NCBI GenBank assembly: GCA_021772915.1
Contig: JAJFLB010000048.1
Location: 1 to 53,286 of the forward strand
Reading direction: 5' to 3'
Origin: Gammaproteobacteria bacterium
Lineage (GTDB): Bacteria; Pseudomonadota; Gammaproteobacteria; Xanthomonadales; SZUA-36
Length of the DNA stretch: 53,286 bases
Shown: in pieces, positions 1 through 25,739 of the stretch
How the letters are laid out: every line of letters starts with the position of its first letter
Numbering within the stretch: the first letter of the stretch is position 1
Notes under the pieces: model-generated
Told to the model about the DNA's origin: nothing
The model's input: only the letters and a program-made list of their open reading frames with translations
The model's database searches: none
Translations under genes and position numbers: made by a program

Positions 1-156
1 CAGGGAGGTACCCAGATGTCCCCACTGCGTCGCCTGAGGGCGCCTACTCTTGGTGCAGCCCTTGAGAAGGACCGGGCCATTCTCTGCTGTCTGCGTCTTG
101 TCCTGAAACATCTGGGTACCTCTGAATCCGTAGTTATCACAGGGACGGAGCACTCG
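1..156 (-). repeat. Structured repeat family, copy A (cut by the window start)
   Basis: This is part of a four-copy repeat family and lies in the opposite orientation to the other three. It contains the GGTACCCAGATG / CATCTGGGTACC arm pair and the module AAGGACCGGGCCATT. Its right end is AGTTATCACAGGGACGGAGCACTCG, matching the terminal inverted repeat of copy B at 6272-6566. It also carries a short module around 29-52 that in copies B and C lies nearer the other end. Only this end of the element is inside the window. Open reading frames here are by-products of the palindromes. Confidence 0.85.
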
Positions 157-504
157 TGTGCTGTCCACACGTGGACAGGATATTGTAAACGTTTGAACAG
201 ATGCTGAAAACGACTGGTTGAGTGGCTTGCAAATAATCCAGCAGGCCTGTGGATAACTCTGTGGAAAAAGTTGTCTCAAGCACATCGGCTTTGGGGCGTG
301 TTAATATTGCCTCAGATTCTTCGGCAACCCGAAAAGCATGAAAAACGTAAAAAAACAATTGTTTAAGAACCACTCTGTATGATTTCATCTCAACAAGTTC
401 ATTAAGCCCATGTTTTTCAGTCGTGCGTTTGCATCTGTGCATAAGAAACAGTTGGCAGAACTTGCTAAAGGATTAATTACAGGACGAGTCAGGTAGGGGC
501 TGCC
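157..504. other. Noncoding stretch with a cluster of DnaA-box-like sites
   Basis: No convincing gene is seen in these 348 bases. TGTGGATAA at 248-256 is the exact reverse complement of the DnaA box TTATCCACA. TGTGGAAAA follows at 260-268, twelve bases on and on the same strand. TGTGCATAA at 436-444 fits TTATNCACA in the same orientation. An 8-bp inverted repeat, CTGTCCAC-AC-GTGGACAG, lies at 161-178. An AT-rich run lies at about 335-370. A 28-codon ORF (410-496) ends eight bases before dctM but has no ribosome binding site and is not called. The cluster could be a replication origin, a DnaA-titration site or a DnaA-regulated promoter. No dnaA, dnaN, gyrB or mnmG gene is nearby. Confidence 0.5.
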
Positions 505-1884
505 ATGGCGGGATTGATGTCTTTGGGGTTGTTTGTCGCTGCTGGTTTGTCGTTACTGGCGGGCTTCCCGGTCGCCTTTACCCTGGCTGGTGTTGCGCTG
601 GTTTTCGCCCTGCTGGGAATGTTGACGGGAACGTTTGATCCGTCCTTTCTGGGGGCCTTCCCCAGTCGTATTTTTGGCATCATGAGTAACGAGACACTCA
701 TTGCTGTACCGGTTTTTGTATTTATGGGTGTCATGTTGGAACGCTCAAAGCTTGCGGATCAGTTGCTGCAGGCATTGGCTCAGCTGATGCGACGGATCCC
801 TGGTGGTTTGGGTCTTGCCGTGATGGTGGTGGGGGCACTAATGGCCGCCAGCACAGGTATCGTAGGGGCCACGGTAGTCACCATGGGATTGCTGTCGTTA
901 CCTACCATGCTCAAGAACAAATATGACCCATCCATTGCCACCGGCAGTATCTGCGCAGCCGGCACGCTGGGCCAGATAATTCCACCATCCATTGTTCTCA
1001 TACTACTTGCAGATGTGTTATCCAACGCCTACCAGCAGGCCCAACTGCAGTTGGGCATATTCAGTCCGGAAACGATATCGGTGGGTGAGTTGTTTGCTGG
1101 TGCCCTGCTACCGGGACTGTCCCTGGTTGGACTTTACATGCTGTACCTGATCGTGATGGCCATTATCAGGCCACGGTCCATGCCGGTGGTGGAGCGTGAA
1201 TCCGGCGATGGCATATCACTCCTGAACCTCATGGGTCTGCTGGCGGGACCGCTACTACTGATTGCAGCCGTGCTGGGGTCTATTTTGTTGGGTCTGGCAA
1301 CACCTACCGAAGCGGCGGCCGTGGGTGCAACAGGTGCCATGTTACTGGCGCTCAAACAGAGGCAGCTTTCAATGGAAACCTTGCGGAGCGTGGTCTATCA
1401 ATCCACCAGGGTCAGCGCCATGGTTTTCATGATTTTGATTGGTGCGTCATTGTTCAGCCTGGTGTTTCGTGGCTTCGGTGGTGATGAATATGTCCAGTCC
1501 CTGCTGGCGAACCTGCCTGGTGGTGAGATCGGCGCCATGCTGGCGGTCATGCTGGTTTTGTTTTTACTGGGCTTTATCCTTGATTTTATTGAGATCACCT
1601 ATGTGGTTATCCCCATCGTTGGTCCGGTTCTGCTGGCCATGGGAATCAACCCCGTGTGGCTCGGTGTGATGATCGCCATCAATTTGCAAACTTCATTTCT
1701 GACGCCACCATTTGGCTTCTCATTATTTTACCTGCGTGGTGTCACACCGGCGGAGATAGAAACCTCAGCGATCTACCGGGGGGTAATTCCTTTTATTGCC
1801 ATTCAGCTATTGATGCTGGGCTTACTCAGCCTGTGGCCGGCTTTGGCCACTTGGCTACCAGCAGTAATATACGCGGGTCCCTAG
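505..1884 (+). CDS. dctM: TRAP transporter large permease subunit (DctM family)
   Basis: This 459-residue protein is the membrane transport subunit of a tripartite ATP-independent periplasmic (TRAP) transporter, which imports organic acids using an ion gradient. The chain is almost wholly hydrophobic, with about a dozen membrane segments, and has DctM-typical features such as the GTLGQIIPPSIVLILLAD stretch near residue 155 and the late QTSFLTPPFGFSLFYLRG stretch. The ATG at 505 follows GGTAGGGG by about six bases. No small permease (DctQ) is visible upstream; copy A and the DnaA-box region lie there instead. The binding protein gene is at 2208-3317 on the opposite strand, so the usual P-Q-M operon is broken up. 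The stop codon lies inside a degenerate REP sequence. The substrate cannot be read from sequence. Confidence 0.93.
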   Translation: MAGLMSLGLFVAAGLSLLAGFPVAFTLAGVALVFALLGMLTGTFDPSFLGAFPSRIFGIMSNETLIAVPVFVFMGVMLERSKLADQLLQALAQLMRRIPGGLGLAVMVVGALMAASTGIVGATVVTMGLLSLPTMLKNKYDPSIATGSICAAGTLGQIIPPSIVLILLADVLSNAYQQAQLQLGIFSPETISVGELFAGALLPGLSLVGLYMLYLIVMAIIRPRSMPVVERESGDGISLLNLMGLLAGPLLLIAAVLGSILLGLATPTEAAAVGATGAMLLALKQRQLSMETLRSVVYQSTRVSAMVFMILIGASLFSLVFRGFGGDEYVQSLLANLPGGEIGAMLAVMLVLFLLGFILDFIEITYVVIPIVGPVLLAMGINPVWLGVMIAINLQTSFLTPPFGFSLFYLRGVTPAEIETSAIYRGVIPFIAIQLLMLGLLSLWPALATWLPAVIYAGP

Positions 1885-1976
1885 GACCGACGAACTAGCA
1901 CTTCGGGAACCACCCGGATCTGCACAAAACCCGACATGGGCCCGTAGGACTGACGAGCTTGCTCGTCGGGAATTCT
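1880..1976. repeat. Pair of REP-like palindromes
   Basis: The better copy (1943-1973) reads GTAGGACTGACGAGC-TT-GCTCGTCGGGAA, a hairpin built on GACGAGC/GCTCGTC. A degenerate copy (1880-1911) begins CTAGGACCGACGA and overlaps the dctM stop codon. The same sequence occurs as an inverted pair at 37835-37912. This is the style of REP elements found many times in gammaproteobacterial intergenic DNA. Confidence 0.75.
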
Positions 1977-2002
1977 CAATGGGAGCGTATCTTGCAAGGG
2001 CA

Positions 2003-2163
2003 CAACGTCCCGGTCTGGGCAGGCCCTCCAGAGACCCGCTCAAGTACGTGGCCCAGGCCAGCCTCTCGACTGGTTCCCGGTCTCACCTTCTCCTTGTAGC
2101 GCTCTGTCGCCGACATCCTGTCGGCTCAAGGTCACCGGAGGGCCTGCCCAGACCGGGACGTTG
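2003..2163. repeat. Long inverted repeat with perfect 27-bp arms
   Basis: Arms at 2003-2029 and 2137-2163 are perfect reverse complements over 27 bases, enclosing 107 bases. The arm begins CAACGTCCCGGTCTGGGC. The interior holds a pyrimidine-rich module, CTCTCGACTGGTTCCCGGTC at about 2060, that recurs next to copy B at 6573. The element lies between the convergent genes dctM and dctP. There is no adjacent T-run, so it is not a standard intrinsic terminator, though it could block read-through in both directions. The rest of the gap 1885-2207 is REP sequence and unremarkable spacer. Confidence 0.75.
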
Positions 2164-2207
2164 TCTTGTGCGAAACCGACGGGTCCATCATGACAGGGTC
2201 GCCGGTT

Positions 2208-3317
2208 CTAACTGTCGGGTCGCAGATTCACAAGTGTGCGTTCAGATATCGTTGTCCACGGATTGACGATATCGTAATAGGCGTTGAAAGAAGCGTAGAT
2301 TCGCCCCATCAATTCACTCTCGCTGGCCATTTCAAGCATCAGCTCATCACTGATCTCTCGCAGGTGATTAAGCACCTCATCAGGTAGACGGCGGAGCTGC
2401 ACACCGTGCTCATTGAGCAATGACCGAAGGGCTACACCGTTGTTGTAAGTAAAGTCTGACAGGGTTTCCATGACCCCAGCCTGGCAGGCGACTTCAACGA
2501 TGGCTTGCAGATCGGCAGGCAGTGTGTCCCAGGCCTCCTTGTTGATCATGCACTCCAGACCAGTTCCCGGCTCGTGCCAACCTGGGTAGTAGTAATACTT
2601 GGCGGCACGAAACAGACCGAAAGCAAGATCGTTATATGGGCCAACCCACTCAGTTGCGTCGATGATGCCAGTTTGCAATGCCGTAAATAACTCTGCTCCG
2701 GGAATGGTTTGTGGGGTTCCGCCGGCCCGCTTCAGAATTTCTCCACCTGGTCCCGGAATGCGCATCTTCAGGCCGTTGAGGTCATCCAGGCTATTTATTT
2801 CGCGGTTGAACCAACCAGCCATCTGGGGGCCTGAATTACCTGCGAGAAAGGGGATGAGCCCGTAGGGTGCGTACACTTCCCGCCACAACTCCAGTCCACC
2901 GCCGTGGTAAATCCAGCCGTGCAGTTCCTGTGCACTCATACCAAAAGGGATACCGGCAAAATACTGAGCGGCTGGCACTTTGCCCTTCCAGTAATAGGTG
3001 GCGCTGTGGCCCATTTCAGCCGTCCCCTGGGTAACAGCGTCAAATACCTCAAACGGAGGCACGAGCTCGTTGCCACCAAAAACCCTTATGTTGAGCCGCC
3101 CGTTACTAAGCTTGCTGATGGATTCTGCCAGGTGGTTGGCGCTGGTTCCCAGCCCGGGAAAATCACGTGGCCAGGAAGTGACCATTTTCCATGTAAAAGT
3201 TTCCATTGAGCCACTTTCCGTGCACGCCGGTCTTGCTGTGGTCTGATCAGCACATGCACCCAACAAACCGGCTGCGCCGGCCAGTCCTGCAACCCCGACA
3301 AATTTTCGTCTATCCAT
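2208..3317 (-). CDS. dctP: TRAP transporter solute-binding protein (DctP family)
   Basis: This 369-residue periplasmic binding protein delivers substrate to a TRAP permease, probably the DctM encoded convergently at 505-1884. The N-terminus carries a twin-arginine signal (MDRRKFVGVAG) followed by a lipobox-like LLGAC, so export by Tat and lipid anchoring are likely. The family signature includes the conserved arginine region GLKMRIPGPGGEILKRAGG near residue 190 and the WVGPYNDLAFG / YYYYPGWHEPG stretch seen in the alpha-keto-acid-binding (TakP-like) branch. Length is normal for the family. The ligand is not certain; a 2-oxo acid is a reasonable guess from the TakP-like features. It lies apart from its permease with repeats between, so co-transcription is impossible. 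Confidence 0.92.
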   Translation of the reverse strand: MDRRKFVGVAGLAGAAGLLGACADQTTARPACTESGSMETFTWKMVTSWPRDFPGLGTSANHLAESISKLSNGRLNIRVFGGNELVPPFEVFDAVTQGTAEMGHSATYYWKGKVPAAQYFAGIPFGMSAQELHGWIYHGGGLELWREVYAPYGLIPFLAGNSGPQMAGWFNREINSLDDLNGLKMRIPGPGGEILKRAGGTPQTIPGAELFTALQTGIIDATEWVGPYNDLAFGLFRAAKYYYYPGWHEPGTGLECMINKEAWDTLPADLQAIVEVACQAGVMETLSDFTYNNGVALRSLLNEHGVQLRRLPDEVLNHLREISDELMLEMASESELMGRIYASFNAYYDIVNPWTTISERTLVNLRPDS

Positions 3318-3486
3318 GGATTACATTCTCCTGTGTTCCAGAACTATTGCGGCATTCCCAGGCGCACGTTTTGTGCATTGGGTCTGAACAACCTGATTCA
3401 CTATCCATTTCACCCGGGAATAAATCAAGGATCACCCAACTCGTGGTGCTATAGTGAGTAGGAGTGTATAGCAGTTCAGGTTTTTG

Positions 3487-3693
3487 ATGAAATCAGACGA
3501 TATCTCAGAAATTACACGATTGTTAGGGGAGCTTCGTGAAGAGCACCGTGACCTCGATCAGGCGATCAACCGCATGGCCATGGATCAGTGGCAGGATCAG
3601 TTGCGGCTGCGACGCATGAAAAAACGCAAGCTGAAGTTGAAAGACTGGATTGCCCGACTGGAGTCGAAATTGATCCCGGATTTGGATGCCTAG
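3487..3693 (+). CDS. YdcH-like small protein (DUF465)
   Basis: This is a 68-residue, highly charged, helical protein. Its first half is acidic (ISEITRLLGELREEHRDLDQAI) and its second half basic (RRMKKRKLKLKDWIARLESKL), the usual pattern of the DUF465/YdcH family: short coiled-coil proteins of unknown function, common in proteobacteria. ATG at 3487 is chosen over TTG at 3484; AGG lies about seven bases upstream. It diverges from dctP and converges on plsB. No signal peptide or membrane segment is seen. Function is not assigned. Confidence 0.85.
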   Translation: MKSDDISEITRLLGELREEHRDLDQAINRMAMDQWQDQLRLRRMKKRKLKLKDWIARLESKLIPDLDA

Positions 3694-3743
3694 CTGTGAA
3701 TTCCAGTATCGTTGTACACACCGCGTGTCCGAGTAACTCGTAA

Positions 3744-6266
3744 TTAGTCTGCTACGCCTTCCTCCGAGGGTTTTTTTGCCACCGGTGTCTGCCGGTCAAT
3801 TTCCTGCCGAATGGCTTCCCCGAGTATGAATTTTGCGTCGTTGCTGACGCGTCTGAGACGTTGGTCAAATACCAGTTTTTCATCCTCGTTGGTCGCAAGG
3901 TAGCCGGTTTTGCGTAACTGAGCGATGAAGCCCCTGAACAGAGCCTTGTCGGAGAATTCAGGCGCATCAAACTCATGCAACATGGATATTCTTTGGGCGG
4001 TGTGGATACACAAGCGTTCCAGGTCCTCTCTGCTCAGCACGCCGGAGCCGTTTCTTGCCAGTACAGAAATCGTAATCAGGTAACGTCTGATAGTCTGCAG
4101 CAGGCTGTGTGCCATGATTTTCAATTGCATTACGGCTTCGGGGTTGTCCCTGGCGTGCGACAAGGTTTGCCCATCCCCCCTCCTGACCAGGAGGCCGTGT
4201 TGAACCAGTTGCTCAATGGATTCATCCAGTGCCCGGGTTATCTCTATCTGACTCCAGGGGATGAACAACTCAGCCTGCAAAAAAGGCTGGGTGGCAATTG
4301 CAAACTTGCGCAAGTGGTCGATCAAAAAACTACGGTGCTCCAGGAAACAACAGGCGATCAACGAGGGTAATGCCATCAGGTGGGCGATATTGTTGCGGAA
4401 GTATGTCAGACCCACCGCGCGGTCAGACTGGATGAAAATGATATCGCCGAGTTCGTGTGGTCTACGCAACAGGATTTTCATTTGGAAACCGTATTCAATC
4501 ACTTCATTGGCGCTTTTGCTGGTTACCGTCACCCGTTCAGGTGTGGGCGCATGGCTCAATAATGATTGGTACAGTGCTATCTGTCGGGCCAATTGTGATT
4601 CTCCAAGCGCATGTCTTGGAGTGCCCAACATGACCAACGCCAGCAAGTTAACCGGGTTGACATCGGCGCTGGCATTGATACGCCTCATGATCGTCTGGCT
4701 AAGATCGTTGACAAGGTGGCTTAGCCAGCTTGGGGTGACATTTTCACCGGCACTGGTCTCTCGCCACTGTGGGTCATGTCGGTCGAGCAAGTTATCGAGG
4801 AAGACGGGCTCACCGAGACTGACATGCGCTACGCCATAGTTATGTTGCATGACACCAAAAATCTTGATCAGGTCAGATAATTTTTCCGAGCGCTTCGTCT
4901 TGCCGGATAACTCTGTAGTATAGCTATTACCCTCAGCCAGCCGCTCGTAGCCAATGTAAACCGGTTGGAACATGATGGGTCTGGATGGTGCGTTCAAAAA
5001 ACCCTTCACTGACATGGCCAGCATGCCGTTTTTAGGTGGCAGCAGACGACCGGTACGGCTACGGGTGCCTTCGATGAAGTACTCAAGAGAAACACCCTGT
5101 GATTGAATGGTGCTCAAATACTCATTAAATACAGCGGCGTACAACTTATGCGACTGAAAAGTCCGGCGCAGATAAAATGCGCCACCACGGCGTAACACGG
5201 AGCCTACAACCGGCAAATTCAGATTTACACCTGCCGCGATGTGCGGTGGTACTGAACCTTGTTCGTGTATCAGGTAGGACAGCAAAACGTAATCAAGGTG
5301 GCTGCGGTGACAGGGCACATAGATTACTTCGTGACCAAGCGCATGGTGGTGAAGATCTTCGAAATGGTTCACCGTAATGCCGTTGTAGATTCGATGCCAG
5401 AACCAGGACAGAAAGGTTACGGCAATGGTAATGAATGAGTAGGAGTAATTGGCAGCAATTTCACGTGCGTATTTTGTTGCCATTCGCCGGGCTTTTTCCG
5501 CTGAAATGCCCTCACTCCTGGCTTTTGCCTCAATTGCTGCAGCAACAGCGGACGACTTGACGACGCTGCCTACGATAGTTCGGCGGTGCGAGAGGTCAGG
5601 TCCTATGGCAGCAGTTCGCACGCGTCTGAAATGTACCCTGAGTATGCGCGAGACTTTTCTAAGTGCTACCGCCTCGTCTAAACCTTCTGCCGCCATATTT
5701 TTCAGGGAAAGTGGGCGGCTGAATTGCACAAAGGTCTTGCGACCGTTAACCAGTGTGCTGAAGAATCGACGCAAACGACCGGCAATTTCCCAGTTCTCGG
5801 CAAACACGGTGCGTGTTAAGCCGCTCTCCTTGCTCGGTCTTTGACCGACAAGCACTGTAACAGGCACCAACTGGATATCCAGCTCAGAATTTTCCCAATT
5901 CCCGTCTATCACTTTTTGCAGCATGGCGGAATGACTGCGTGTAGTCGGGCGCCGGATAAAAAGACCCTTGAGGCGTTTCAATGTAGCGTAAGAGCGGGTG
6001 GGGCTTTCGGAGAAGCACCGTATGGGCAATAGTGGGCGGGCCAATCCTTGCTGTTCGCAACATTTGTCCAGAATCAGTACCGAGGACAGGGCATATGCAT
6101 CCATTACATAACACACAGGCCGTTCATCACCGACGCCGATATTGCCATCGACATCAGCGTGGATACGTGGGTTAACCCACAAACAAAGAACCCAGCGTAG
6201 TAACAGATACCAACGCAGTTTGAGCCTGTTGATCAATGTAGTTTGTTGGTTCAGTTTATTTGACAT
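3744..6266 (-). CDS. plsB: Glycerol-3-phosphate 1-O-acyltransferase PlsB
   Basis: PlsB transfers an acyl group to the sn-1 position of glycerol-3-phosphate, the first step of phospholipid synthesis at the inner membrane. The 840-residue length fits the long proteobacterial PlsB form. The catalytic HX4D motif is visible as HRSHLDY near residue 317, followed by the glycerol-3-phosphate-binding motif FIEGTRSRTGRLLPPKNGM near residue 395. The ATG at 6266 lies six bases from the end of repeat copy B. The only Shine-Dalgarno-like bases (GGAG) lie inside the repeat's terminal arm, about eleven bases upstream. The element therefore forms the 5' leader of this essential gene, and its promoter must lie in or beyond it. 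Confidence 0.96.
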   Translation of the reverse strand: MSNKLNQQTTLINRLKLRWYLLLRWVLCLWVNPRIHADVDGNIGVGDERPVCYVMDAYALSSVLILDKCCEQQGLARPLLPIRCFSESPTRSYATLKRLKGLFIRRPTTRSHSAMLQKVIDGNWENSELDIQLVPVTVLVGQRPSKESGLTRTVFAENWEIAGRLRRFFSTLVNGRKTFVQFSRPLSLKNMAAEGLDEAVALRKVSRILRVHFRRVRTAAIGPDLSHRRTIVGSVVKSSAVAAAIEAKARSEGISAEKARRMATKYAREIAANYSYSFITIAVTFLSWFWHRIYNGITVNHFEDLHHHALGHEVIYVPCHRSHLDYVLLSYLIHEQGSVPPHIAAGVNLNLPVVGSVLRRGGAFYLRRTFQSHKLYAAVFNEYLSTIQSQGVSLEYFIEGTRSRTGRLLPPKNGMLAMSVKGFLNAPSRPIMFQPVYIGYERLAEGNSYTTELSGKTKRSEKLSDLIKIFGVMQHNYGVAHVSLGEPVFLDNLLDRHDPQWRETSAGENVTPSWLSHLVNDLSQTIMRRINASADVNPVNLLALVMLGTPRHALGESQLARQIALYQSLLSHAPTPERVTVTSKSANEVIEYGFQMKILLRRPHELGDIIFIQSDRAVGLTYFRNNIAHLMALPSLIACCFLEHRSFLIDHLRKFAIATQPFLQAELFIPWSQIEITRALDESIEQLVQHGLLVRRGDGQTLSHARDNPEAVMQLKIMAHSLLQTIRRYLITISVLARNGSGVLSREDLERLCIHTAQRISMLHEFDAPEFSDKALFRGFIAQLRKTGYLATNEDEKLVFDQRLRRVSNDAKFILGEAIRQEIDRQTPVAKKPSEEGVAD

Positions 6267-6271
6267 TTTGG

Positions 6272-6566
6272 TTAGTACTCCATCCGTGTGATAACTACGG
6301 ATTCAGAGGTACCCAGATGTTTCAGGACAAGACGCAGACAGCAGAGAATGGCCCGGTCCTTCTCAAGGGCTGCAACGCAGTGCTGGGACATCTGGGTACC
6401 TCCCTTCGGGCGAACTGGGAAGCGGTCGTCCGTGGTGCCGCATCACTTGGCAAGGACCGGGCCATTACCTGTGTGCTGCACCAAGAGTAGGCGCCCTCAA
6501 GCGACCCCACGGTCAACCACTTCCCAACTCGCTGAACTCGCAGTTATCACAGGGATGGAGTACTAG
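6272..6566 (+). repeat. Structured repeat family, copy B (full-length form)
   Basis: This 295-base element is bounded by TTAG and CTAG, with terminal inverted repeats TACTCCATCC...TGTGATAACT of about 24 bases (one or two mismatches). Inside are three arm pairs. Pair 1 is 6306-6320 with 6388-6402 (15 bp, perfect). Pair 2 is 6347-6361 with 6452-6466 (AATGGCCCGGTCCTT, 15 bp, perfect). Pair 3 is about 6409-6425 with 6516-6533 (imperfect). Pair 2 crosses pairs 1 and 3, so not all can form at once as simple hairpins. The element lies six bases upstream of plsB and carries no coding capacity. Confidence 0.9.
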
Positions 6567-6572
6567 GGGCCG

Positions 6573-6612
6573 TTCTCTCGACCGGTTCCCGGCCTCACCG
6601 TCTCTCATCTTC
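6573..6612 (+). repeat. Short module shared with the inverted repeat at 2003-2163
   Basis: CTCTCGACCGGTTCCCGGCC and the bases after it match positions 2060-2095 closely, with scattered substitutions. It directly follows copy B. It may be a fragment of the same element type as 2003-2163. The rest of the 6567-6933 gap holds plain spacer up to about 6700 and then the candidate small RNA unit. Confidence 0.5.
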
Positions 6613-6702
6613 TTCCTGTTTTGGGCTAAATGTTACACCATCACGTGGAAATTGATGTCGTATTTGGCCGGAAGCTACGCATTATCAAAAAAGCGTTCGC
6701 AC

Positions 6703-6737
6703 AAAAAAAACCCGGACGAGGCGCGAGGCCCGTCCGG
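6703..6737 (-). terminator. Intrinsic terminator
   Basis: On the minus strand, CCGGACGGGCCTCGCGCCTCGTCCGG forms a GC-rich hairpin (6712-6737) followed directly by TTTTTTTT (6710-6703). This is a textbook rho-independent terminator for leftward transcripts. It would end the candidate small RNA and any read-through from pyrF. Confidence 0.8.
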
Positions 6738-6791
6738 AAATCCGGCGGAGCCGGAGAGGATCGGTCTAATGGATCAGTCTGCAATTCTATT
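6703..6791 (-). ncRNA. Candidate small RNA of about 90 nt
   Basis: On the minus strand, a promoter-like TTGACA-N18-TACATA pair is followed within 90 bases by a small hairpin (6741-6755, TCCGGC-GGA-GCCGGA) and then a strong intrinsic terminator ending in eight T. The interval has no ATG and no plausible reading frame. The unit starts about 110 bases downstream of the pyrF stop codon, with its own promoter, so it looks independent rather than a pyrF tail. It does not match a small RNA I recognise. An alternative is that only the terminator is real and serves pyrF. Confidence 0.45.
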
Positions 6792-6797
6792 TTTTAT

Positions 6798-6827
6798 TAT
6801 GTAGTTATAGCTATATCGTAATGTCAA
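6798..6827 (-). promoter_or_regulatory. Sigma-70-like promoter for the candidate small RNA
   Basis: Minus-strand TTGACA (6827-6822), an 18-base spacer and TACATA (6803-6798) in AT-rich surroundings. A second TTGACA lies 17 bases further upstream (6844-6839), without a good -10 at the right distance. It points away from pyrF towards the terminator at 6703-6737. Confidence 0.5.
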
Positions 6828-6933
6828 ACATTAACTATTGTCAACACTTTTTTTAAAAAAGACACTGGCTCTTCAGACCGTCAAAACTGGTTTATGTGTG
6901 ATTCGTGAAGTAACCACTGGCAAAATGATGGGG

Positions 6934-7641
6934 TCAGGATGCTCTTAGAGCGTCTGCTATTTCCTCTTGGATGGCTTCAGCAGCAGCCCTGGGATCTGGG
7001 GCGGTTCGTATCGGACGGCCCACAACAAGATAATCCGCACCGTCTTTTATGGCCGCATAAGGTGTCATGACCCGCTGCTGATCGTCGTCGTTGTGCACCG
7101 GTCGGATACCGGGGCACACCGTGATCAGATGAGGGCTGGTATGTTCACGTAGTGCACTAACCTCCAGTCCGGATGAGACGACACCGTCACAGCCCAATGC
7201 CAGCGCTCGTCGAGCGCGTGACAAGACCAGTGCTTTGGGATCGCAACGGAAACCAAGGTCATCAAGATCACCCTGGTCCAGACTGGTTAGTGCGGTTACC
7301 GCGAGTATTCGCATGCTCCCCTTTGCCTCTGCGGCTGCCCTGAGCATGGAATCGTTACCATGAACAGTGCAAAAATCTACCTGATTGCGGCTCAATTGAC
7401 GGACTGCAGCAGCTACGGTGGCGGGAATGTCAAATAACTTCAGGTCGGCAAAAACCTTTTTTCCGCAATCTTTGAGCTGGGTCATCAATTCAAAATAATG
7501 TCCCGACAAGAATATTTCCAAACCCAATTTGTAAAACTCAACCGAGTCTCCGAGGCAGTCTATTAAGCCTTGAGCCTCTTTCAGGTTGGGTACATCAAGC
7601 GCAAAAATCAATCGTTCGCGGCTGGTAATTTTAGTATTCAT
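6934..7641 (-). CDS. pyrF: Orotidine 5'-phosphate decarboxylase
   Basis: PyrF converts OMP to UMP, the last step of pyrimidine synthesis. The 235-residue length is typical. The catalytic signature DxKxxDIP is seen as ADLKLFDIP at residues 65-73 (Lys68, Asp71). The phosphate-binding end ICVCPGIRP / DYLVVGRPI type motifs appear as LITVCPGIRP and YLVVGRPI in the C-terminal third. It follows the alpha/beta hydrolase gene on the same strand with a 22-base gap, so the two may be co-transcribed. The stop codon lies inside a 13-base sequence that recurs at the anmK stop codon. Confidence 0.97.
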   Translation of the reverse strand: MNTKITSRERLIFALDVPNLKEAQGLIDCLGDSVEFYKLGLEIFLSGHYFELMTQLKDCGKKVFADLKLFDIPATVAAAVRQLSRNQVDFCTVHGNDSMLRAAAEAKGSMRILAVTALTSLDQGDLDDLGFRCDPKALVLSRARRALALGCDGVVSSGLEVSALREHTSPHLITVCPGIRPVHNDDDQQRVMTPYAAIKDGADYLVVGRPIRTAPDPRAAAEAIQEEIADALRAS

Positions 7642-10770: not shown

Positions 10771-11039
10771 CTAGTGGCCCAACAAGGTAGTATTGATGGG
10801 CTCAGAGCTATCCAGATGCTCCAAGACAAGGCGCAGTCCGCAGGGAATGGCCAGTCCTTTCCAAGGGCTGCAACGCCGTATTGGAGCATCTGGATAGCTC
10901 CCTTCGGGCGAGTCGTGAAGCGGTCGTCCGCGGTGTTGCGCCTCTTGGCAAGGACTGGCCATTACCGGCGAGACGCGCCTAGCGGTCAACTGCTTCACGA
11001 CTCGCTGAACCCACCAAAACTGCCTTGTTGGACCACTAG
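10771..11039 (+). repeat. Structured repeat family, copy D (divergent full-length form)
   Basis: This 269-base element has CTAG at both ends (10771-10774 and 11036-11039) and terminal repeats TGGCCCAACAAGG / CCTTGTTGGACCA. Arm pairs are 10805-10823 with 10882-10900 (19 bp, perfect), 10846-10859 with 10950-10963 (AATGGCCAGTCCTT, 14 bp, perfect) and 10908-10921 with 10992-11005 (GCGAGTCGTGAAGC, 14 bp, perfect). The order of arms is the same as in copy B, but the sequence differs, with changes mirrored in both arms. It exactly fills the space between the purD stop codon, which uses its terminal TAG, and the uvrD start. Confidence 0.9.
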
Positions 11040-18570: not shown

Positions 18571-19710
18571 TCAGGGGGTTTGCAATACGGTTGGCGTGAA
18601 ACCGATTTCATCGACACTGCGCAGGTGCTTTCCACTGCCTGCCGAATAGATATCCAGGGTCGGGTTGGCAATAAATATGGAGAACAGCAATGGATTATTG
18701 TCCTTGCTGACCTGAATGGATGTTGCCAAATTTTCGAGCTTTATTTTCTGGACCTGCTTTTTCGCTTTCAAATCATAAACCCAGACATCCTGGCCAGGGT
18801 CCTTATGAGTGTCGTCGCCCCCCTGGTGCATCAACGAGTACAATTTGCCGCTTTGCTCGTGTAGTGCGAGGTGTTGGATGCCCCCTGGACGCCATGAACC
18901 TTTGCGCTCGGCCGCACTTAACAAAGACCAGGGTTTGCCGGGTTTGGGTTGCTTGCCAGATACATCAACGGGGTAGACGTTGGCATTGAAAGAGACAAAA
19001 ATCCAGGTGTCATCCCAACGCACGGCTTTTTCCGTGACCCAGTCGGTCTTGGGATCGAAGAATGGATCATTGCGCTGCTGGTTGGTGACCTCTCCCTTAT
19101 CATTCAAGGTTACGGTCAACAGGCTGCCGTCACCACACAGCATATTGAATCGCCGGTCACCGGAAGGCAGTACCAAAGCACAACCTCCCGTATCGGTTTC
19201 TCCGACAAAGCGACGTTCTTTCAGATCGACAATGCTGATCGATTGTGCCGGAGTAAAGTTATAAACCATCAGAAAACGATCATCATCCGTCAGTGCGGAA
19301 TAGTTAAGCGTTGGCATGGCGGCAAAACGCTTGGGTGGGATGATAACTTCCCCGGTGGGCTTGAGTTCACGAGGATCATAGAAGGTGATGACGTCGGTAC
19401 GTTCGCCCCGCGTACCACGTGAAAAATAGGTCTCTGGAGAATAAATTTGCGCATAGTCAGAGGGCAATGCCAGTGCAATAAACCCCAGACCAGTACTCAG
19501 CATACCGAGAAATTTCCCCGTGTCGCCATCGAGCAGGTATGACTTGCCGTCTGCCATATGGTGAAAAACGATGTCATTTACCCATACCCAGTGCGGATTG
19601 GCCTCGGCAGGAAGGACGATGGACGGGGGCATACTTTCGGATTGGACTTCAGCAAGGCCTAAAACTGGCAAGAAAGAAATCCAGACCAGAAAAATGAGTT
19701 TGCGTAACAT
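18571..19710 (-). CDS. aauB: Aralkylamine dehydrogenase heavy subunit
   Basis: This is the large beta-propeller subunit of the TTQ amine dehydrogenase. ATG at 19710 is chosen because it gives a clean signal peptide (MLRKLIFLVWISFLPVLGLA) and has AAGGTG eight bases upstream; the frame is open a further 19 codons. The mature part shows the family's repeated blade motifs, including NDIVFHHMADGKSYLLDGDTG, GERTDVITFYDP and PWSLLSAAERKGSWRPGG. The last, with THKDPGQDVWVYD, lines up well with the Alcaligenes enzyme. It is the first gene of the aauBEDA-cytochrome-pyrE transcription unit and diverges from the Crc-type exonuclease gene with about 88 bases between. Confidence 0.92.
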   Translation of the reverse strand: MLRKLIFLVWISFLPVLGLAEVQSESMPPSIVLPAEANPHWVWVNDIVFHHMADGKSYLLDGDTGKFLGMLSTGLGFIALALPSDYAQIYSPETYFSRGTRGERTDVITFYDPRELKPTGEVIIPPKRFAAMPTLNYSALTDDDRFLMVYNFTPAQSISIVDLKERRFVGETDTGGCALVLPSGDRRFNMLCGDGSLLTVTLNDKGEVTNQQRNDPFFDPKTDWVTEKAVRWDDTWIFVSFNANVYPVDVSGKQPKPGKPWSLLSAAERKGSWRPGGIQHLALHEQSGKLYSLMHQGGDDTHKDPGQDVWVYDLKAKKQVQKIKLENLATSIQVSKDNNPLLFSIFIANPTLDIYSAGSGKHLRSVDEIGFTPTVLQTP

Positions 19711-19798
19711 AAGCTGCACCTTGGGGTCGTCGCGTAGAGTCAAGATAAACGCTATTTTGCCAGACATCCAGAGTTAATAAATATCGAGGGGGATACTA

Positions 19799-20665
19799 AT
19801 GCAATATGTGGGGCAGGCGGTTATGCTGATCATCGACCCCAAAAAAATAACAGAAACTCACCCTATGCGTATCATCAGTATCAACACCAATGGCATCCGC
19901 GCGGCGGCGCGCAAGGGTTTTTTTGACTGGATGCAAAAGCAAAATGCAGATGTTATCTGTATTCAGGAAACCAAGGCACAGGAGCACCAGTTAAGTGATG
20001 CCGTGTTTTCCCCTTCCGGTTATCGGCGATTTTTTCACGACGCACAGAAAAAGGGCTATAGCGGCGTTGCTATCTATACGCGACACGACCCCGACGTCGT
20101 GAATTTCGGTATTGGCTGGAAAGTCATGGATAACGAAGGGCGTTGGATCCGGGCAGATTTTGGTGACCTAAGTGTTATCTCCCTGTACCTGCAGTCTGGC
20201 TCATCCAAAGAGGAACGCCAGCAGATCAAGTATCAGACGATGGATTATCTGCAACCTTTGCTCAAGGCTATGGTGGCGGAGGGGCGGGAATACATCATTT
20301 GTGGTGACTGGAACATTGCACACCGGAAGATTGATATCAAGAACTGGCGAAGCAACCAGAAGAATTCGGGTTTTCTACCGGAAGAGCGGGCCTGGATGGA
20401 CGAGCTTTTTGGCTCAGTCGGCATGGTGGACGCTTTCCGGAAGGTTGAGCCGGGTGAAGACCACTACACGTGGTGGTCCAACCGCGGCCAGGCTTGGGCC
20501 AATAACACGGGTTGGCGAATAGACTACCAGGTTGCCACACCAGGTGTAGGGGCAAAGGCGCAAACGGCTGTCATCTATAAAGACGATCGTTTTTCGGACC
20601 ATGCGCCACTGATCATTGATTACGATTACAAAATCCACGTGACAGGGCCCGACAAGCACGGATGA
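19799..20665 (+). CDS. xthA: Exonuclease III family protein of the Crc branch
   Basis: This exonuclease III / AP endonuclease family protein repairs abasic sites. From residue 23 it reads MRIISINTNGIRAAARKGFF. The stretches KIDIKNWRSNQ and FLPEERAWMDELFG closely resemble Pseudomonas Crc, the catabolite-repression protein that has lost nuclease activity. Unlike Crc, catalytic motifs look intact here: IQETKAQ (metal-binding Glu), GDWNIAH (Asp-Asn) and FSDHAPLI (Asp-His). ATG at 19799 has a strong GAGGGGG six bases upstream. The conserved family start would be the ATG at 19865, which lacks one. The gene overlaps ampG by four bases. In Pseudomonas, crc lies beside pyrE; here the aau cluster separates them. 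Confidence 0.9.
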   Translation: MQYVGQAVMLIIDPKKITETHPMRIISINTNGIRAAARKGFFDWMQKQNADVICIQETKAQEHQLSDAVFSPSGYRRFFHDAQKKGYSGVAIYTRHDPDVVNFGIGWKVMDNEGRWIRADFGDLSVISLYLQSGSSKEERQQIKYQTMDYLQPLLKAMVAEGREYIICGDWNIAHRKIDIKNWRSNQKNSGFLPEERAWMDELFGSVGMVDAFRKVEPGEDHYTWWSNRGQAWANNTGWRIDYQVATPGVGAKAQTAVIYKDDRFSDHAPLIIDYDYKIHVTGPDKHG

Positions 20666-21906
20666 ATACGCAGCCAAGACGCTGGCAGGAGATTTTGCTC
20701 AACCGCAAGATGGTGACCTGTGTTTTTCTCGGGTTCAGCTCGGGTTTGCCACTCTACGTGTTGATCCAACTGGTGCCGGCATGGCTGCGTAGCCACCAGG
20801 TGGACCTGGCAACCATTGGTTTGTTTGCACTGGTGTCGCTGCCCTACACCTGGAAGTTCGTCTGGTCACCATTGATGGATCGTTATTCCTTGCCATTTTT
20901 GGGCCGACGCAGGGGCTGGGCATTGATTACGCAGCTTGGATTGCTTTTCTCCATCGCAGCGCTTGGTCAGTTCGACCCGACAGTGTCACTGCAGGCGATT
21001 GTGGTGACCGTATTCATCGTCTCTCTTTTCGGCGCCAGTCAGGATATTGTCATCGATGCCTACAGGCGTGAATTATTGGCAGATGATGAGCTCGGCACCG
21101 GAAATTCTTTTTTTGTCAACGCATACCGTGTGTCATCACTGGTGCCCGGTTCACTGGCGCTTATTCTGTCAGATCATCTGCCGTGGCAGGTTGTTTACTG
21201 GGTTACCGCAGGGTTCATGGGCGTTGGTATTGTCACCACCCTGGTGATCAGGGAAGTCAGTGATGATGCGTTGGCCCCGGGGACACTAAGAGCAGCAGTC
21301 GTTGAGCCTTTTGTGGAATTTTTTTCCCGTGGTGGGATCAGGGCTGGACTCGCCATTCTTGCTTTTATGTTCTTGTACAAGCTGGGCGACAACATGGCAA
21401 CCGCGTTGGCCACGCCCTTTTACCTCGATATGGGATTCAGTCGCACCGAGATCGGGTCTATTGCTAAAGTCGCCGCGCTGTGGTCGGTCATCGCCGGAGG
21501 CATCCTGGGTGGTTTGGCAATGTTGAAGTTGAGCATCAACCGGGCCCTGTGGTTATTTGGCTTTGTGCAGATGTTCACCATTCTGGGTTATGTCTGGTTG
21601 AGCACGCTTGGCCATAACCCGGCGGCGTTGTTTGTGGTAGTCAGCGCCGAGTACCTGGGTGTTGGGTTGGGGGCAATTGCCCTGACGGCTTACATGGCGC
21701 GAGAGACCAGCAAGGCCTTCACGGCCACCCAGTTTGCCTTGTTCAGTAGTTTTATTGCAGTGCCACGGACCTTTGCCAATGCTTCAACGGGCTTCATCAT
21801 CGAGTGGCTGGGCTACACGCAATTCTTCATGGTGTGCACGTTGGTCGCGATTCCGGGCATGTTGCTTCTACTGAAGGTCGCTCCGTGGAATGCCAGATCG
21901 ACCTGA
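20662..21906 (+). CDS. ampG: AmpG-like muropeptide permease (MFS)
   Basis: This 414-residue major-facilitator-superfamily transporter with about twelve membrane segments resembles AmpG, which imports GlcNAc-anhydroMurNAc peptides for cell-wall recycling. Supporting motifs are FLGFSSGLPLYVLIQLVPAWLR at the N-terminus, KFVWSPLMDRYSLPFLGRRRGW in the first half (the MFS signature loop) and GASQDIVIDAYRRELL near residue 130. The start overlaps the exonuclease stop codon by four bases, so they are co-transcribed. The recycling enzyme AnmK is encoded at 27721-28833, consistent with a working recycling route. Confidence 0.9.
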   Translation: MNTQPRRWQEILLNRKMVTCVFLGFSSGLPLYVLIQLVPAWLRSHQVDLATIGLFALVSLPYTWKFVWSPLMDRYSLPFLGRRRGWALITQLGLLFSIAALGQFDPTVSLQAIVVTVFIVSLFGASQDIVIDAYRRELLADDELGTGNSFFVNAYRVSSLVPGSLALILSDHLPWQVVYWVTAGFMGVGIVTTLVIREVSDDALAPGTLRAAVVEPFVEFFSRGGIRAGLAILAFMFLYKLGDNMATALATPFYLDMGFSRTEIGSIAKVAALWSVIAGGILGGLAMLKLSINRALWLFGFVQMFTILGYVWLSTLGHNPAALFVVVSAEYLGVGLGAIALTAYMARETSKAFTATQFALFSSFIAVPRTFANASTGFIIEWLGYTQFFMVCTLVAIPGMLLLLKVAPWNARST

Positions 21907-21964
21907 TTTTTCCGTCTCGAAATCTACCACAATAGAACCCTGAACAACCCGCTCATTCCCACAG

Positions 21965-22738
21965 TCAAATGTCGCGTTTGTCGATCAACGGGTTTGGTTT
22001 GGCAAGACGTTTCAGTGCTCTGAGATCTGTCAAATGAATTCTCTTACCGCTAACCTCCACACCATATTCCCCTAGTTTCTTGAATGCGCGGGAAAGATAT
22101 TCCGGGGTCACGCTCAACAGAGCAGCCAAGGTCCGTTTGTTTTCTGTCAACATGATCTGGCCACGTCCGGACGTCTGCTCATTCATGCGTATCAGGTAAT
22201 TTGCCAGGCGCTCCAGACCGGTGCGTAGCTTCCGCTCTTTGAAGGCTCTGATGACACCGCGAAAGTTTTTGGTAAGTTCTGTCACCATCGTGCGTGCAAA
22301 ATCAGGATCTGTTTCCATCACCTTGCGGACATTTCCCGCCGGTATCATTAATATTTTGCTGTCGTCCAGGGTTCTCGCCGACATCAGATAAACGGCATCT
22401 TTCAGGACGGCAGCCAGGATAAATGTGGAACCGGCCCGAAGCACCAGCATGGTGGTGTCCCGGTCGTTGGAGCTGCTGAACATCTCGACAGTACCTTCCA
22501 GAACAATATGAAGAAAATCCGCAGGATCCCCTTCTGTAATAATTTGAACCTGTGGTGGAGATTGCTTTAGATGAGACAGCTTGAGTAGTTGGTCAAAGTG
22601 CTCGTCGCTCATGCTGGAAAAAAGCGAAATTTCCCTAATGATAGCGACATCTTCCTCGTTCATCATGAAACCTCTGTGGTAGTGCTGATCATGATCAACT
22701 GGAAATCGATATTTATCAAGTGTGAATATATTTGTCAT
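21965..22738 (-). CDS. Crp/Fnr-fold transcriptional regulator
   Basis: This protein of up to 257 residues has an N-terminal cyclic-nucleotide-binding-like domain (ISLFSSMSDEHFDQLLKLS, then ITEGDPADFLHIVLEGTVEMF) and a C-terminal winged helix (KRTLAALLSVTPEYLSRAFKKLGEYGVEV). The Fnr-type N-terminal cysteines are absent, so oxygen sensing by an iron-sulfur cluster is unlikely. The effector is unknown. MMNEEDVAIIREI at residue 25 is a possible internal start. It diverges from the amidohydrolase gene at 22916 and converges on ampG. It may regulate its divergent neighbour, but no clear dyad was found between them. Confidence 0.87.
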   Translation of the reverse strand: MTNIFTLDKYRFPVDHDQHYHRGFMMNEEDVAIIREISLFSSMSDEHFDQLLKLSHLKQSPPQVQIITEGDPADFLHIVLEGTVEMFSSSNDRDTTMLVLRAGSTFILAAVLKDAVYLMSARTLDDSKILMIPAGNVRKVMETDPDFARTMVTELTKNFRGVIRAFKERKLRTGLERLANYLIRMNEQTSGRGQIMLTENKRTLAALLSVTPEYLSRAFKKLGEYGVEVSGKRIHLTDLRALKRLAKPNPLIDKRDI

Positions 22739-22915
22739 CTCGTTAAAGCTCCCGATCCTGGAAGCCCACTGATGATCCTGACCGTGTCGGGATCACTACA
22801 TCTTTCAATGCCGGTATTACACACCAGCTATGCGGGGAGAGCCCTTTGGGCAGGGAATTACGAGCCATTTCCTCTATAGTGTCCGCTGGCTAGTTCGCTT
22901 CATCGGGGAGAAACC

Positions 22916-24943
22916 ATGGAAGTCTCGTCACCTACTTGCATGTTCCGTTTGAACATGATGGTCATTGTAATGGTCTTTGTTACCGGGGTACCGGCTCAGG
23001 CTCAGCAATCCGTCAGACACGACTTTTTGACGATCGGGGAGAAATCCGGTGAGCAGATTCTAACCAGAAATACCGATGGCACACGCAGTATTCAATTCAA
23101 CTTTAATGACCGTGGCCGAGGTCCTGAGACAGTAACCCGGTACACACTGGATGAGCACGGACTTCCCCTTGAAATTTCCATCACCGGTCTGAACTACATG
23201 AAGTCCGAAATTTCGGAAACCTTTTCACGTCACGGTGAAACGGGTAATTGGCAATCTGACAATGAGAAGGGAAAAAGTAATCGGGCGGGATCAAATTTCT
23301 TCTGGCCACTGAACGGCCCCCCCGAGTTTCTCGCAATTCTGGCGCGAGCCCTGTTGCAGGAAGAAGATGGAGAGGTCTCACTGTTGCCGAATGGAACCGC
23401 CCGTATTGAAACACTCCAAAGCAGGACCGTTACAGGGGCCGATAGCCAGCAAAAAACCATTACACTTTACTCAATTTCGGGTCTCGACGACGTACCCAGT
23501 TATGTGTGGCTGGACCAGGACCAAGCTCTGTTTGGCGCCGATTTTGGTTGGGTTTCAATTACGCCCGAGGGCTTTAACGAAACCTACACAATCCTGAAGC
23601 AAGATCAGGAGTCGGTTGAGAACCAGCGTCTGTTACAGGCGAGTGCGAAGCTGAGCACCGGGTTGGTTGGCCTGACCGCGTTCACCAATGTGGACCTATT
23701 TGACAGCCTCGGCGGATCCCTGCAAAAAGCTAAGACCGTTTATGTCATGGACGGCCGCATTTCTGCGATCGTGGATGCCGCACTACCCGTTTCAGATGGA
23801 GTACAGGTCATAGAAGGGGACGGTAAAACCATGCTCCCAGGTCTATGGGATATGCATGGACATGTCTCCGCCACTAACTACTTCAACTATCTTGCGCTTG
23901 GTATTACCAATGTGCGTGATATGGCAAACGACCCCGAATTTATTATCAAGACTCGACGGGACATTGCTTCGGGCTCACTGGCGGGTCCGGATATCCATGC
24001 GCTGGGCTTTATTGACCAGAAGTCAGAGTTTGCTGCGCCCACCGGTATGCTGGCCGAGACTCTTGACCAGGCGATTGAATTCGTGGATTACTATGCGCGC
24101 CACGGTTTTGTGGGGATTAAGTTGTACAGCTCTGTTGAGCCCGAGTGGGTTACACCTATTGCTGATTATGCTCACAGCCTGGGCCTTAGCGTACAGGGTC
24201 ATGTACCCGCTTTTATGGTGGCGACCCAGGCCATTGAAAATGGCTATGATGAACTGACCCATATCAATATGGCCATGCTGGATTTGCTGGGTGCCGACGA
24301 CTTGGACACACGTACACCGCTACGCTTTACCGTGCCTGGGTCCCGCGGTGGTACCATCGATGTTAACGGCAAGGCAATGGACAAGCTGGTTGCCCTGATG
24401 AAAAGCCGTGGCACTGCCATCGATCCCACTCTCGGCATTTTTCTGGACATGTTTTTGAATGAGCCGGGAAAAATTCTCCCATCACATCGTCCCTCCGCCG
24501 GTCAGTATCCAACAGGTACGCGACGGGCTTCGTTGGCCTCAAAGGGCCGCAATTTTGGTGATGAGGTAAATTATGCCAAGTCTGCTTCGACAGCACGTGC
24601 GATGGTGAAACGCTTTCATAACGAGGGCATCAGGTTGCTTGCAGGCACCGATAACGCGCCCTGGGGCTTCGCGCTTGTGTATGAATTGAGGGCTTATGTC
24701 GAAGCGGGTATCCCCGCAGCCGAGGTCCTGAAACTGGCCACTATTGGAGCGGCTCGGCATATGAATATGGATCAGACTCTTGGCTCTGTCAGTCCGGGCA
24801 AGCGCGCACATTTCGTATTACTGAGCGGAAATCCCCTGGAAGACATCGGGGCATTACTTCGCACCAGCATTATCGTGAAAGATTCAAGTATGTACTCGGC
24901 GGCAGCGCTCTTGCGGGAGCAGGGTTATACGCCCCTGGAATGA
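22916..24943 (+). CDS. Periplasmic amidohydrolase with extended N-terminal domain
   Basis: This 675-residue protein begins with a signal peptide (MMVIVMVFVTGVPAQA within the first 30 residues). About 220 residues of unassigned beta-rich sequence follow, then an amidohydrolase-superfamily domain. Metal ligands are visible as WDMHGH near residue 315, a likely carboxylated lysine in GIKLYSS near 402, GHVPAF, THINMAM, and the late catalytic Asp in AGTDNAPWG. The C-terminal LGSVSPGKRAHFVLLSGNPLEDI is typical of dipeptidase/imidazolonepropionase-like members. Substrate is unknown; a peptide or cyclic amide is plausible. It is alone between a divergent Crp-fold regulator and a DUF2165 gene. Confidence 0.87.
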   Translation: MEVSSPTCMFRLNMMVIVMVFVTGVPAQAQQSVRHDFLTIGEKSGEQILTRNTDGTRSIQFNFNDRGRGPETVTRYTLDEHGLPLEISITGLNYMKSEISETFSRHGETGNWQSDNEKGKSNRAGSNFFWPLNGPPEFLAILARALLQEEDGEVSLLPNGTARIETLQSRTVTGADSQQKTITLYSISGLDDVPSYVWLDQDQALFGADFGWVSITPEGFNETYTILKQDQESVENQRLLQASAKLSTGLVGLTAFTNVDLFDSLGGSLQKAKTVYVMDGRISAIVDAALPVSDGVQVIEGDGKTMLPGLWDMHGHVSATNYFNYLALGITNVRDMANDPEFIIKTRRDIASGSLAGPDIHALGFIDQKSEFAAPTGMLAETLDQAIEFVDYYARHGFVGIKLYSSVEPEWVTPIADYAHSLGLSVQGHVPAFMVATQAIENGYDELTHINMAMLDLLGADDLDTRTPLRFTVPGSRGGTIDVNGKAMDKLVALMKSRGTAIDPTLGIFLDMFLNEPGKILPSHRPSAGQYPTGTRRASLASKGRNFGDEVNYAKSASTARAMVKRFHNEGIRLLAGTDNAPWGFALVYELRAYVEAGIPAAEVLKLATIGAARHMNMDQTLGSVSPGKRAHFVLLSGNPLEDIGALLRTSIIVKDSSMYSAAALLREQGYTPLE

Positions 24944-25051
24944 CAGTCGGTCGATCCACCGGGACTTAACAAAATAACGTCTGGTAAAGTATCAGTGAAC
25001 TGGTACCCAAAAACGAGAACGTGAACCGGGTCAGCCTGCGGGAGAGGAACC

Positions 25052-25540
25052 ATGCATATCCGATATTTGAAAGTTCTGATGGCGCTCATCGCGTCATTTA
25101 TGTGTATTTTTTATGTCGCACAGAATTTTGCTAACCCAAATCCAGCTTTTGAGGCTTTCGCCTATGTCATGGGTGGTGCTGATCATGCTATCTATGCCGA
25201 TACCTTTGCCTTTCATATCTCCAACCCGACACTCACATGGTTGGCATTACTGCTGATATTTGCACTTGAATTGCTGGCCGGTCTTCTGCTTCTCAAGGGA
25301 AGTTACGATATGTGGCAGGCAAGGAAAGCGGATGTTGAGACTTTTACGGCGTCAAAAAAGTGGGCAGAAATTGGGGCTGGGGCTGGTATTCTGGTCTGGT
25401 TTGGTTTTTTTGGAGTGCTTGGTGCAGCATTTTTTCAGATGTGGCAAACGGCTATCGGGGCTGGTTCCATGGACGATGCGTTTCAGTTTTTTGTCTCCAT
25501 GGCAGTTACCTTGCTGTTTCTCAATCAGGCTGACAGATAA
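25052..25540 (+). CDS. DUF2165 small membrane protein
   Basis: This 162-residue integral membrane protein has four hydrophobic segments (about 6-24, 62-84, 106-130 and 142-158) and matches the DUF2165 family of predicted small membrane proteins. GGGAGAGG precedes the ATG. The central periplasmic-side loop NPNPAFEAFAYVMGG...HISNPTLTW is the most conserved-looking part. No function is known. Repeat copy C begins ten bases after its stop codon. Confidence 0.85.
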   Translation: MHIRYLKVLMALIASFMCIFYVAQNFANPNPAFEAFAYVMGGADHAIYADTFAFHISNPTLTWLALLLIFALELLAGLLLLKGSYDMWQARKADVETFTASKKWAEIGAGAGILVWFGFFGVLGAAFFQMWQTAIGAGSMDDAFQFFVSMAVTLLFLNQADR

Positions 25541-25550
25541 GATCAGCATC

Positions 25551-25739
25551 CTTGTACTCCGCCCATGTGATAACTACGGATTCAGAGATACCCAGATGTT
25601 TCAGGACAAGACGCAGACAGCAGAGAATGGCCCGGTCCTTCTCAAGGGCTGCACCAAGAGTAGGCGCCCTCAAGCGACCCCACGGACGACCACTTCCCAA
25701 CTCGCTGAACTCGCAGTTATCACATGGGCGGAGCACTAG
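25551..25739 (+). repeat. Structured repeat family, copy C (short form)
   Basis: This 189-base element is bounded by CTTG and CTAG with terminal arms GTACTCCGCCCATGTGATAACT / AGTTATCACATGGGCGGAGCAC. The first 85 bases match copy B almost exactly up to GGGCTGCA and then jump to CCAAGAGTAGGCGCCC near B's end. About 106 bases are missing, as expected from recombination between the two GCTGCA repeats of the B form. It lost the second arms of pairs 1 and 2 but kept its terminal pairing. It lies between the DUF2165 gene and the sulfatase-fold gene. Confidence 0.88.

Follow-up and report, generated by a model that had tools for sequence, protein, structure and literature searches.

Several described families of bacterial repeats can be compared with the element reported here, which lies in a contig of 53,286 nucleotides from a gammaproteobacterium of the Xanthomonadales (JAJFLB010000048.1, assembly GCA_021772915.1; the whole of this stretch is called the window below). 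As far as the excerpted descriptions extend, the miniature inverted-repeat transposable elements (MITEs) NEMIS/Correia, ERIC, RUP and others resemble it in being small and non-coding, with terminal inverted repeats (TIRs), TA at the ends, many intergenic copies and transcripts predicted to fold. Each of these families is given for one genus or group in a published table (PMC2229807), while the proposed mobiliser of RUP is the transposase of IS630-Spn1, and RNase III cutting of mRNA bearing Correia elements has been reported, according to the available sections of both sources (PMC2229807; PMC10969869). MITEPsy1 from Pseudomonas syringae is likewise a small MITE and inserts at CTAG or YTAA, but measures 100 nt, with an 18-nt TIR and a 4-nt duplication, and probably derives from ISPsy2 of the IS5 family; nothing like the unit described below figures in the accessible part of its description (PMC3189936). 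REPINs, in the excerpt available, are inverted doublets of a palindromic unit, as here, with predicted movement in trans (PMC3116915). Their repetitive extragenic palindromic (REP) units are short with a conserved sequence, and RAYT tyrosine transposases are the predicted movers, as far as that source extends, whereas the units of the present element measure 98 nt and have stems that covary, and its TIRs of 32 bp are flanked by TA. A member of the REPIN or BIME type would have short REP palindromes as its ends and no TA-flanked TIR, which does not agree with these 32-bp TIRs and TA flanks.

The element likely belongs to a MITE superfamily whose ends are in part moved by IS630-type transposases and whose core is an inverted pair of a module, termed U, that is selected as a folded strand, probably RNA, and carried on several kinds of transposon ends. 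It differs from the MITE families above in that the core hairpin occurs across the class and beyond while the ends vary, in the inverted pairing of its units and in a strand-specific wobble signature. Ordinary MITEs conserve their ends, with filler in between; here, a conserved middle is combined with changing ends, and U would be a good starting point for the question of why a transposon should carry an RNA fold. The core consists of two hairpins that form an inverted pair of one 98-nt unit, both read inward. The left hairpin aligns well with the right one once the latter is reverse-complemented, and both have the same loop sequence (AAGGCGC..CGCAG..AATGG..TCCTT..CAAG..GCAACGC), which is also shared by units across the class. 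In the loci of the class and order, the same inverted arrangement is found in 51 of 53 pairs of adjacent units, 47 of 53 gaps measure 9-11 nt, and the two exceptions, by their position, link adjacent elements.

The initial annotation had noticed in four copies, A to D, paired arms that change together, and had taken this for selection on pairing rather than drift of dead repeats. The mirrored changes are borne out in an alignment of 76 copies built without structure (A2), where 21 of the 22 top covarying column pairs lie on the helices of the terminal arms, of arm 1 with arm 1' (left hairpin) or of arm 3 with arm 3' (right hairpin). Sliding the partners by one column lowers the proportion of paired cells from 84% to 36-41%, and complementarity is higher within a copy than between clusters of these 76 copies, with scores of 15.1 against 4.5 for arm 1 and 13.7 against 5.1 for arm 3. 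An RNAalifold consensus of 63 units, obtained after removal of 6 of 69 deduplicated units with insertions or damage, contains 33 pairs, 31 of which have changes on both sides.

Folding can be separated from mere identity of ends by wobble pairs, because a G-U pair keeps the folded strand paired but corresponds to an A-C mismatch on the other strand; this asymmetry provides a simple test of folded-strand selection against the matching of transposon ends. Each column pair was counted once per cluster, with only pairs at least 60% Watson-Crick retained; as the 21 clusters are not independent lineages, p-values are indicative. Arm 1/1' displays 44 G-U against 8 A-C events and arm 3/3' displays 13 against 42, while the TIR, with 42 against 37, has no bias. 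Arm 3 therefore favours the minus strand, and on either strand the one hairpin that is favoured lies in the 5' half of that strand. If the filter is lifted and the end pairs are included, the counts are 50 against 42 for the TIR and 54 against 8 for arm 1. Expressed in the sense of the unit, 118 G-U are found against 25 A-C in the 63 units, and 174 against 25 in a further 112, which come from 59 loci of the class and order beyond the family and were found and aligned with a structure model. The better-folding strand is the sense strand in 57 of the 63 units and in 88 of 104 distinct units. A mutation bias was rejected as the cause of the asymmetry, since the changes in the loops (C>T 17/81 and G>A 23/91 on the left, 19/118 and 12/103 on the right) run opposite to the direction needed. 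Both covariation and wobble asymmetry, by which a structured RNA was to be recognised, are found, and selection on the folded strand is well supported for the two hairpins.

Regarding the terminal arms, the mirrored changes reflect matching transposon ends, not folding, given the lack of a wobble bias and the match of several end types to IS630 ends; selection on pairing thus held for the two hairpin stems, where covariation and wobble bias concur, but not for the terminal arms. An ordinary MITE, whose mirrored arms would all be inverted repeats that stay identical because one arm corrects the other (template switching in a cruciform), with no selection on a folded strand, would predict the unbiased TIR, as would shared end recognition. 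Mosaic and truncated copies suggest template switching by eye, and the bias of arm 3 is weak before filtering. However, arm correction fits poorly with opposite strand biases in the two hairpin halves, which recur in the unit's sense in the 112 further units, with loops devoid of a matching mutation bias and with a loop sequence common to left and right units and to units class-wide, so that this explanation is considered quite improbable.

The identity of each copy as a non-autonomous DNA transposon is well supported. From 120 candidates, 80 copies were picked for their clear paired ends; these run from GTR to YAC and have TIRs of 31-33 bp, whose mean ungapped arm identity is 0.90 within a copy and 0.52 between copies. 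Their length is 263, 264 or 266 nt in 38 of the 80 and 285-289 nt in 18, mostly with one 23-nt module, the overall range being 183 to 336 nt. No conserved open reading frame (ORF) was seen by eye in the A2 alignment. TA flanks both sides of 42 of the 80 copies and at least one side of 77. As the base beyond TA is mostly C or T on the left and G or A on the right, the targets look like CTAG/YTAR and the duplication is TA, which agrees with the CTAG or near variants initially noted at all ends; CTAG as a 4-bp duplication was rejected, the outer bases often differing between the two sides. When the flanks of 15 insertions were joined and searched, four insertions (D, L003, L010 and L078) proved absent from the orthologous place in relatives, with junction-spanning alignments at 12 loci in all, at sites too diverged for a single TA to be read exactly; the remaining 11 joined flanks had no match across the junction in relatives. 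TIRs, short length, TA, empty sites and no conserved ORF seen place the family among MITEs, although it had initially been said to match no class that could be named. Monomers, in which the TIRs enclose a single U, also occur (163-164 nt; L214, L236/L277 and L275). By eye, half-elements are present in several subfamilies (L019, L026, L106, L113, L117, L118, L119, L128, L157), in which a left part, usually extending to about base 95 but longer in L019, is joined to the last few nucleotides of the right end.

The 23-nt module, CCAAGAGTAGGCGCCCTCAGGCGA, sits at several places of the unit (B, C, A, L141, L153, L048, L215, L231) and has a compensated mini-stem of its own (CGCC/GGCG, CACC/GGTG). Of its 30 occurrences, 29 agree with the unit in sense and the one in B does not, if three 183-nt copies are counted as left halves, whereas the scoring script itself had assigned these three to right halves.

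As in IS630-family MITEs, several TIR types match IS630 ends and the target is TA/CTAG, IS630 elements being known to prefer TA in CTAG. The IS630 element of locus L249, in another genome, is 1248 bp long and its ends (CTAGTACATCGACC...) match a monomer TIR at 24 of 30 positions. Matches at 22/28 and 23/28 positions were found for the two ends of L281, whose genome (G659) also holds U elements (locus L231), and at 13/18 and 15/18 for those of L288; each such figure is the best of 169 MITE ends, with a shuffle p of 0.0005, or 0.0035 for the weaker L288 end. The match of the L254 end is weak (17/27, p 0.0025), and the L242, L243 and L245 ends had no match to MITE ends. Within the window, B and C agree with the L281 end at 20/28 and 19/28 positions, respectively.

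TIR and core reassort between copies. Among 2850 copy pairs, 46 have TIRs at least 80% identical with cores at most 66% identical, and 82 have cores at least 80% identical with TIRs at most 55% identical; in L107, ends of the 080 type (0.88-0.95 identical) enclose a different core (0.55-0.61). A TIR was detectable in 73 of 78 class, order and phylum loci (49 of the 59 class and order loci plus all 29 of a further set), again with several types. Unlike in IS630-family MITEs, the same core is also found with other TIR types.

Several observations weigh against the reading of a folded, probably RNA, module moved on IS630-type ends. Regarding the mobiliser, the IS630 DDE_3 domain (PF13358) was not found in the own genome of the window, which is ~98% complete, nor in 7 of 12 element-rich genomes, the other 5 having it. 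Therefore, in such genomes the mobiliser would be missing or of another kind. Likewise, the L249 transposase had no match at E <= 1e-30 in the own genome, and no transposase gene was recognised beside the copies, as had been noted at first. The left end of D agrees with the IS630 ends tried at 15/28 and 16/30 positions at best, not clearly above chance, and the TIR types GAGCCTGTCTCAT, CTAGGGA and CTAAGACAAACG were linked to no insertion sequence (IS). U is found in none of 17 IS630 loci, and the MITE is for this reason not a plain deletion of such an IS. The transposase link may extend to the window's own genome. As to folding, the unfiltered count for arm 3/3', with its two end pairs included, is 49 G-U against 71 A-C (p 0.055), and the structure model behind the 174 G-U of the 112 outside units itself favours G-U over A-C. 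The window's own units differ little between strands, the antisense of the right unit of D even folding slightly better. Moreover, transcribed positions are not favoured: 49 of 67 copies lie between co-directional ORFs, compared with 34 of 42 ORF pairs in the window (crude ORF caller, cut-offs of 100 and 120 codons), and enrichment between co-directional genes is accordingly rejected against this control.

The nature of the folded strand also has to be weighed, as folded single-stranded DNA would yield the same wobble bias. DNA hairpins tolerate G-T better than A-C, and instead of RNA, U could be a DNA hairpin substrate of the kind known from REPIN or attC folds, present in an intermediate of transposition or replication. 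On the other hand, a TA duplication with IS630-like ends speaks for a DDE enzyme, working on double strands, and not for an HUH enzyme, and no folding bias is seen in the TIRs, the part that a transposase should bind. The inverted doublets do look like REPINs, for which hairpin formation in single-stranded DNA or mRNA is predicted in the excerpt available (PMC3116915). On balance, a DNA substrate is regarded as a serious but rather unlikely alternative, and the folded strand is presumably RNA.

In the mechanism that can be proposed, the 31-33 bp TIRs would be bound in trans by a transposase of IS630 type (Tc1/mariner superfamily) and the other end types probably by other transposases, with insertion at TA, mostly within CTAG/YTAR. 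U would form a single long, irregular hairpin in which the stem may vary as long as pairing is kept and the internal loops retain their sequence. Selection would act on the folded single strand that is read from each end towards the middle, most probably as part of the RNA of host transcripts running into the element. In either landing orientation, an incoming transcript would meet a sense U first, and the reassortment of ends and core would make U a module hitchhiking on different transposon ends. U would act in cis on the transcript, e.g., in RNase processing or read-through, and a role in mRNA comparable to the RNase III cutting of Correia-bearing mRNA is possible. U elements would repeatedly introduce mRNA structure beside genes. 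More tentatively, and with somewhat less confidence than doubt, U may be an undescribed RNA domain, a selfish cargo in Gammaproteobacteria and other Proteobacteria that swaps between the ends of unrelated transposase families and acts in cis in either orientation; as selfish cargo, the inverted pair would be kept because U acts on host transcripts whichever way it lands.

The ends of the element lie near start codons in many cases. An ATG of an ORF of at least 100 codons is found within 30 nt of 37 of 153 element ends, against 98 of 1103 control YTAR sites, which include coding DNA, and B and D end at most 8 nt from a start codon. These figures could suggest that the element is kept because its end gives a Shine-Dalgarno site (AAGGAG) to the next gene. 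However, an ATG lies within 14 nt at 11 of 77 ends without the motif and 12 of 76 with it (p 0.82); since proximity to a start codon is equal with or without the motif, this function was rejected and is considered highly improbable.

With regards the distribution of U, searches at E<=1e-3 found it in 119 of 398 genomes and 42 of 98 genera of the order and in 122 of 369 genomes and 96 of 272 genera of the class; at the stricter E<=1e-4, it was found in 101 of 398 genomes of the phylum, other classes among them. These samples overlap, E-values are rough, and incomplete genomes without a match were scored as misses. Being present in about one third of the sampled class genomes, U would be a very common undescribed structured element. 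Among plasmids, two queries had no match, while a third matched one plasmid, from Comamonas odontotermitis, with one unannotated U (54.8 bits with R2, the model of unit U). One query tried on each of phages, E. coli genomes and viral contigs had no match. No Rfam family matched the window at gathering score, and at E<=1 seven element loci had only overlaps below cut-off, i.e., mir-876, mir-8338 and mir-4477 hairpins on the two abutting copies of L080 (best 38.9 bits, cut-off 88) and PAGEV on L048 (19 bits, cut-off 61). No earlier description of the element was recognised in the open-access full-text literature, which is searchable by text and not by sequence.

The genome from which the window originates comprises 4.68 Mb in 71 contigs, the window being all of contig C43. 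Among the relatives retrieved for its acyltransferase gene, the nearest, with 70% identity, belongs to a metagenome-derived genome with the label Lysobacterales, and others bear the label Gammaproteobacteria, in line with the class. With B as blastn query, 52 matches were obtained in this genome, the best besides B itself having an E-value of 5.5e-109. The sequence-only family model R1 gave 95 matches, many of which are both strands of one copy and which collapse to 53 distinct places, 28 of them spanning at least 230 nt; the further copies that the initial annotation proposed to look for are therefore present. At the family level, matches were found in 18 of 39 genomes, own included. Contigs C43, C44, C48, C51, C70 and C10 of the own genome (G000) start or stop within or at the edge of element copies. 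The assembly breaks at contig ends were probably caused by near-identical copies of the element.

The initial annotation had also proposed, from the crossing of arm 2 with arm 2' over the other pairs, either a pseudoknotted or switching RNA or a DNA substrate for a recombinase. This crossing mostly follows from the right half repeating the left one in inverted form, the loops that contain arms 2 and 2' being complementary because of the inverted duplication. Only in 39 of 76 copies do the two arms complement each other better than they complement the arms of other clusters (mean score 9.7 against 8.4). In the chosen register, pairing is seen in 57% of cells and double changes in 7 of 17 pairs, with gaps in this stretch lowering the figure. 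As the register-free test gave no general within-copy excess, a pseudoknot or kissing loop was rejected as a family-wide feature. In a subfamily of seven copies (L120, L121, L109, L122, L098, L154, L123), arms 2 and 2' clearly match better within a copy than between subfamilies, and a loop-loop contact may be real in this L154/L120 subfamily.

The positions of copies A to D given initially are correct, and the full order (terminal arm, arm 1, arm 2, arm 1', arm 3, arm 2', arm 3', terminal arm) with the quoted arms is present in B (6272-6566) and D (10771-11039), the only complete copies in the window, but not in A and C. In B, the left TIR (6275-6306, plus strand; 20/28 positions as in the L281 end) pairs with the right TIR (6532-6563, minus strand), and the TA target-site copies lie at 6273-6274 and 6564-6565 in the sequence. 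Its left unit (6306-6401, plus strand; arms 1/1', with arm 2 in the loop) scores 91.3 bits with R2, and the predicted RNA fold of 6305-6402 has -52.2 kcal/mol (z -6.55). The right unit, an inverted U with arms 3/3' and 2' (minus strand, approximate limits 6411-6531 from alignments A1 and A2), is disturbed by the 23-nt module at 6481-6504 (plus strand), which opposes the unit's sense; inspection by eye suggests that B is a mosaic involving a C-type copy. D has its left TIR at 10774-10805 (plus strand, TA at 10772-10773), its left unit at 10805-10899 (plus strand, R2 100.7 bits, E 1.2e-21), its inverted right unit at 10910-11004 (minus strand, R2 93.2 bits) and its right TIR at 11005-11036 (minus strand, TA at 11037-11038). 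The left unit folds with -61 kcal/mol (z -9.11, 10804-10900) and the right one, on the minus strand, with -54.1 kcal/mol (z -6.65, 10909-11005).

C (25551-25739) is a 183-nt internal-deletion derivative that has lost arms 1', 3 and 2', and in which left TIR, arm 1, arm 2, module (25654-25677, plus strand), arm 3' and right TIR follow each other at 25554-25736 on the plus strand, flanked by TT on the left and TA on the right. A (1-156, minus strand) is the left part of a copy truncated by the contig start (1-154), with a module at about 30-53; it ends at the contig end past arm 1', where the rest of the order is no longer visible.

Among viral contigs, no relative of a UvrD-like ORF of the window was found. 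At 37835-37909, the window contains an inverted pair of another palindromic repeat (GTGGGACCGACGAGC..GCTCGTCGGG), of which two more copies are found near 1.9 kb (1881-1973). This repeat looks like a REP/REPIN family, its GTAG-type start being presumably a REP feature. Beside the latter copies, at 2002-2164, lies a 35-nt inverted repeat that looks unlike the present family and whose arms, 94% complementary, are 93 nt apart.

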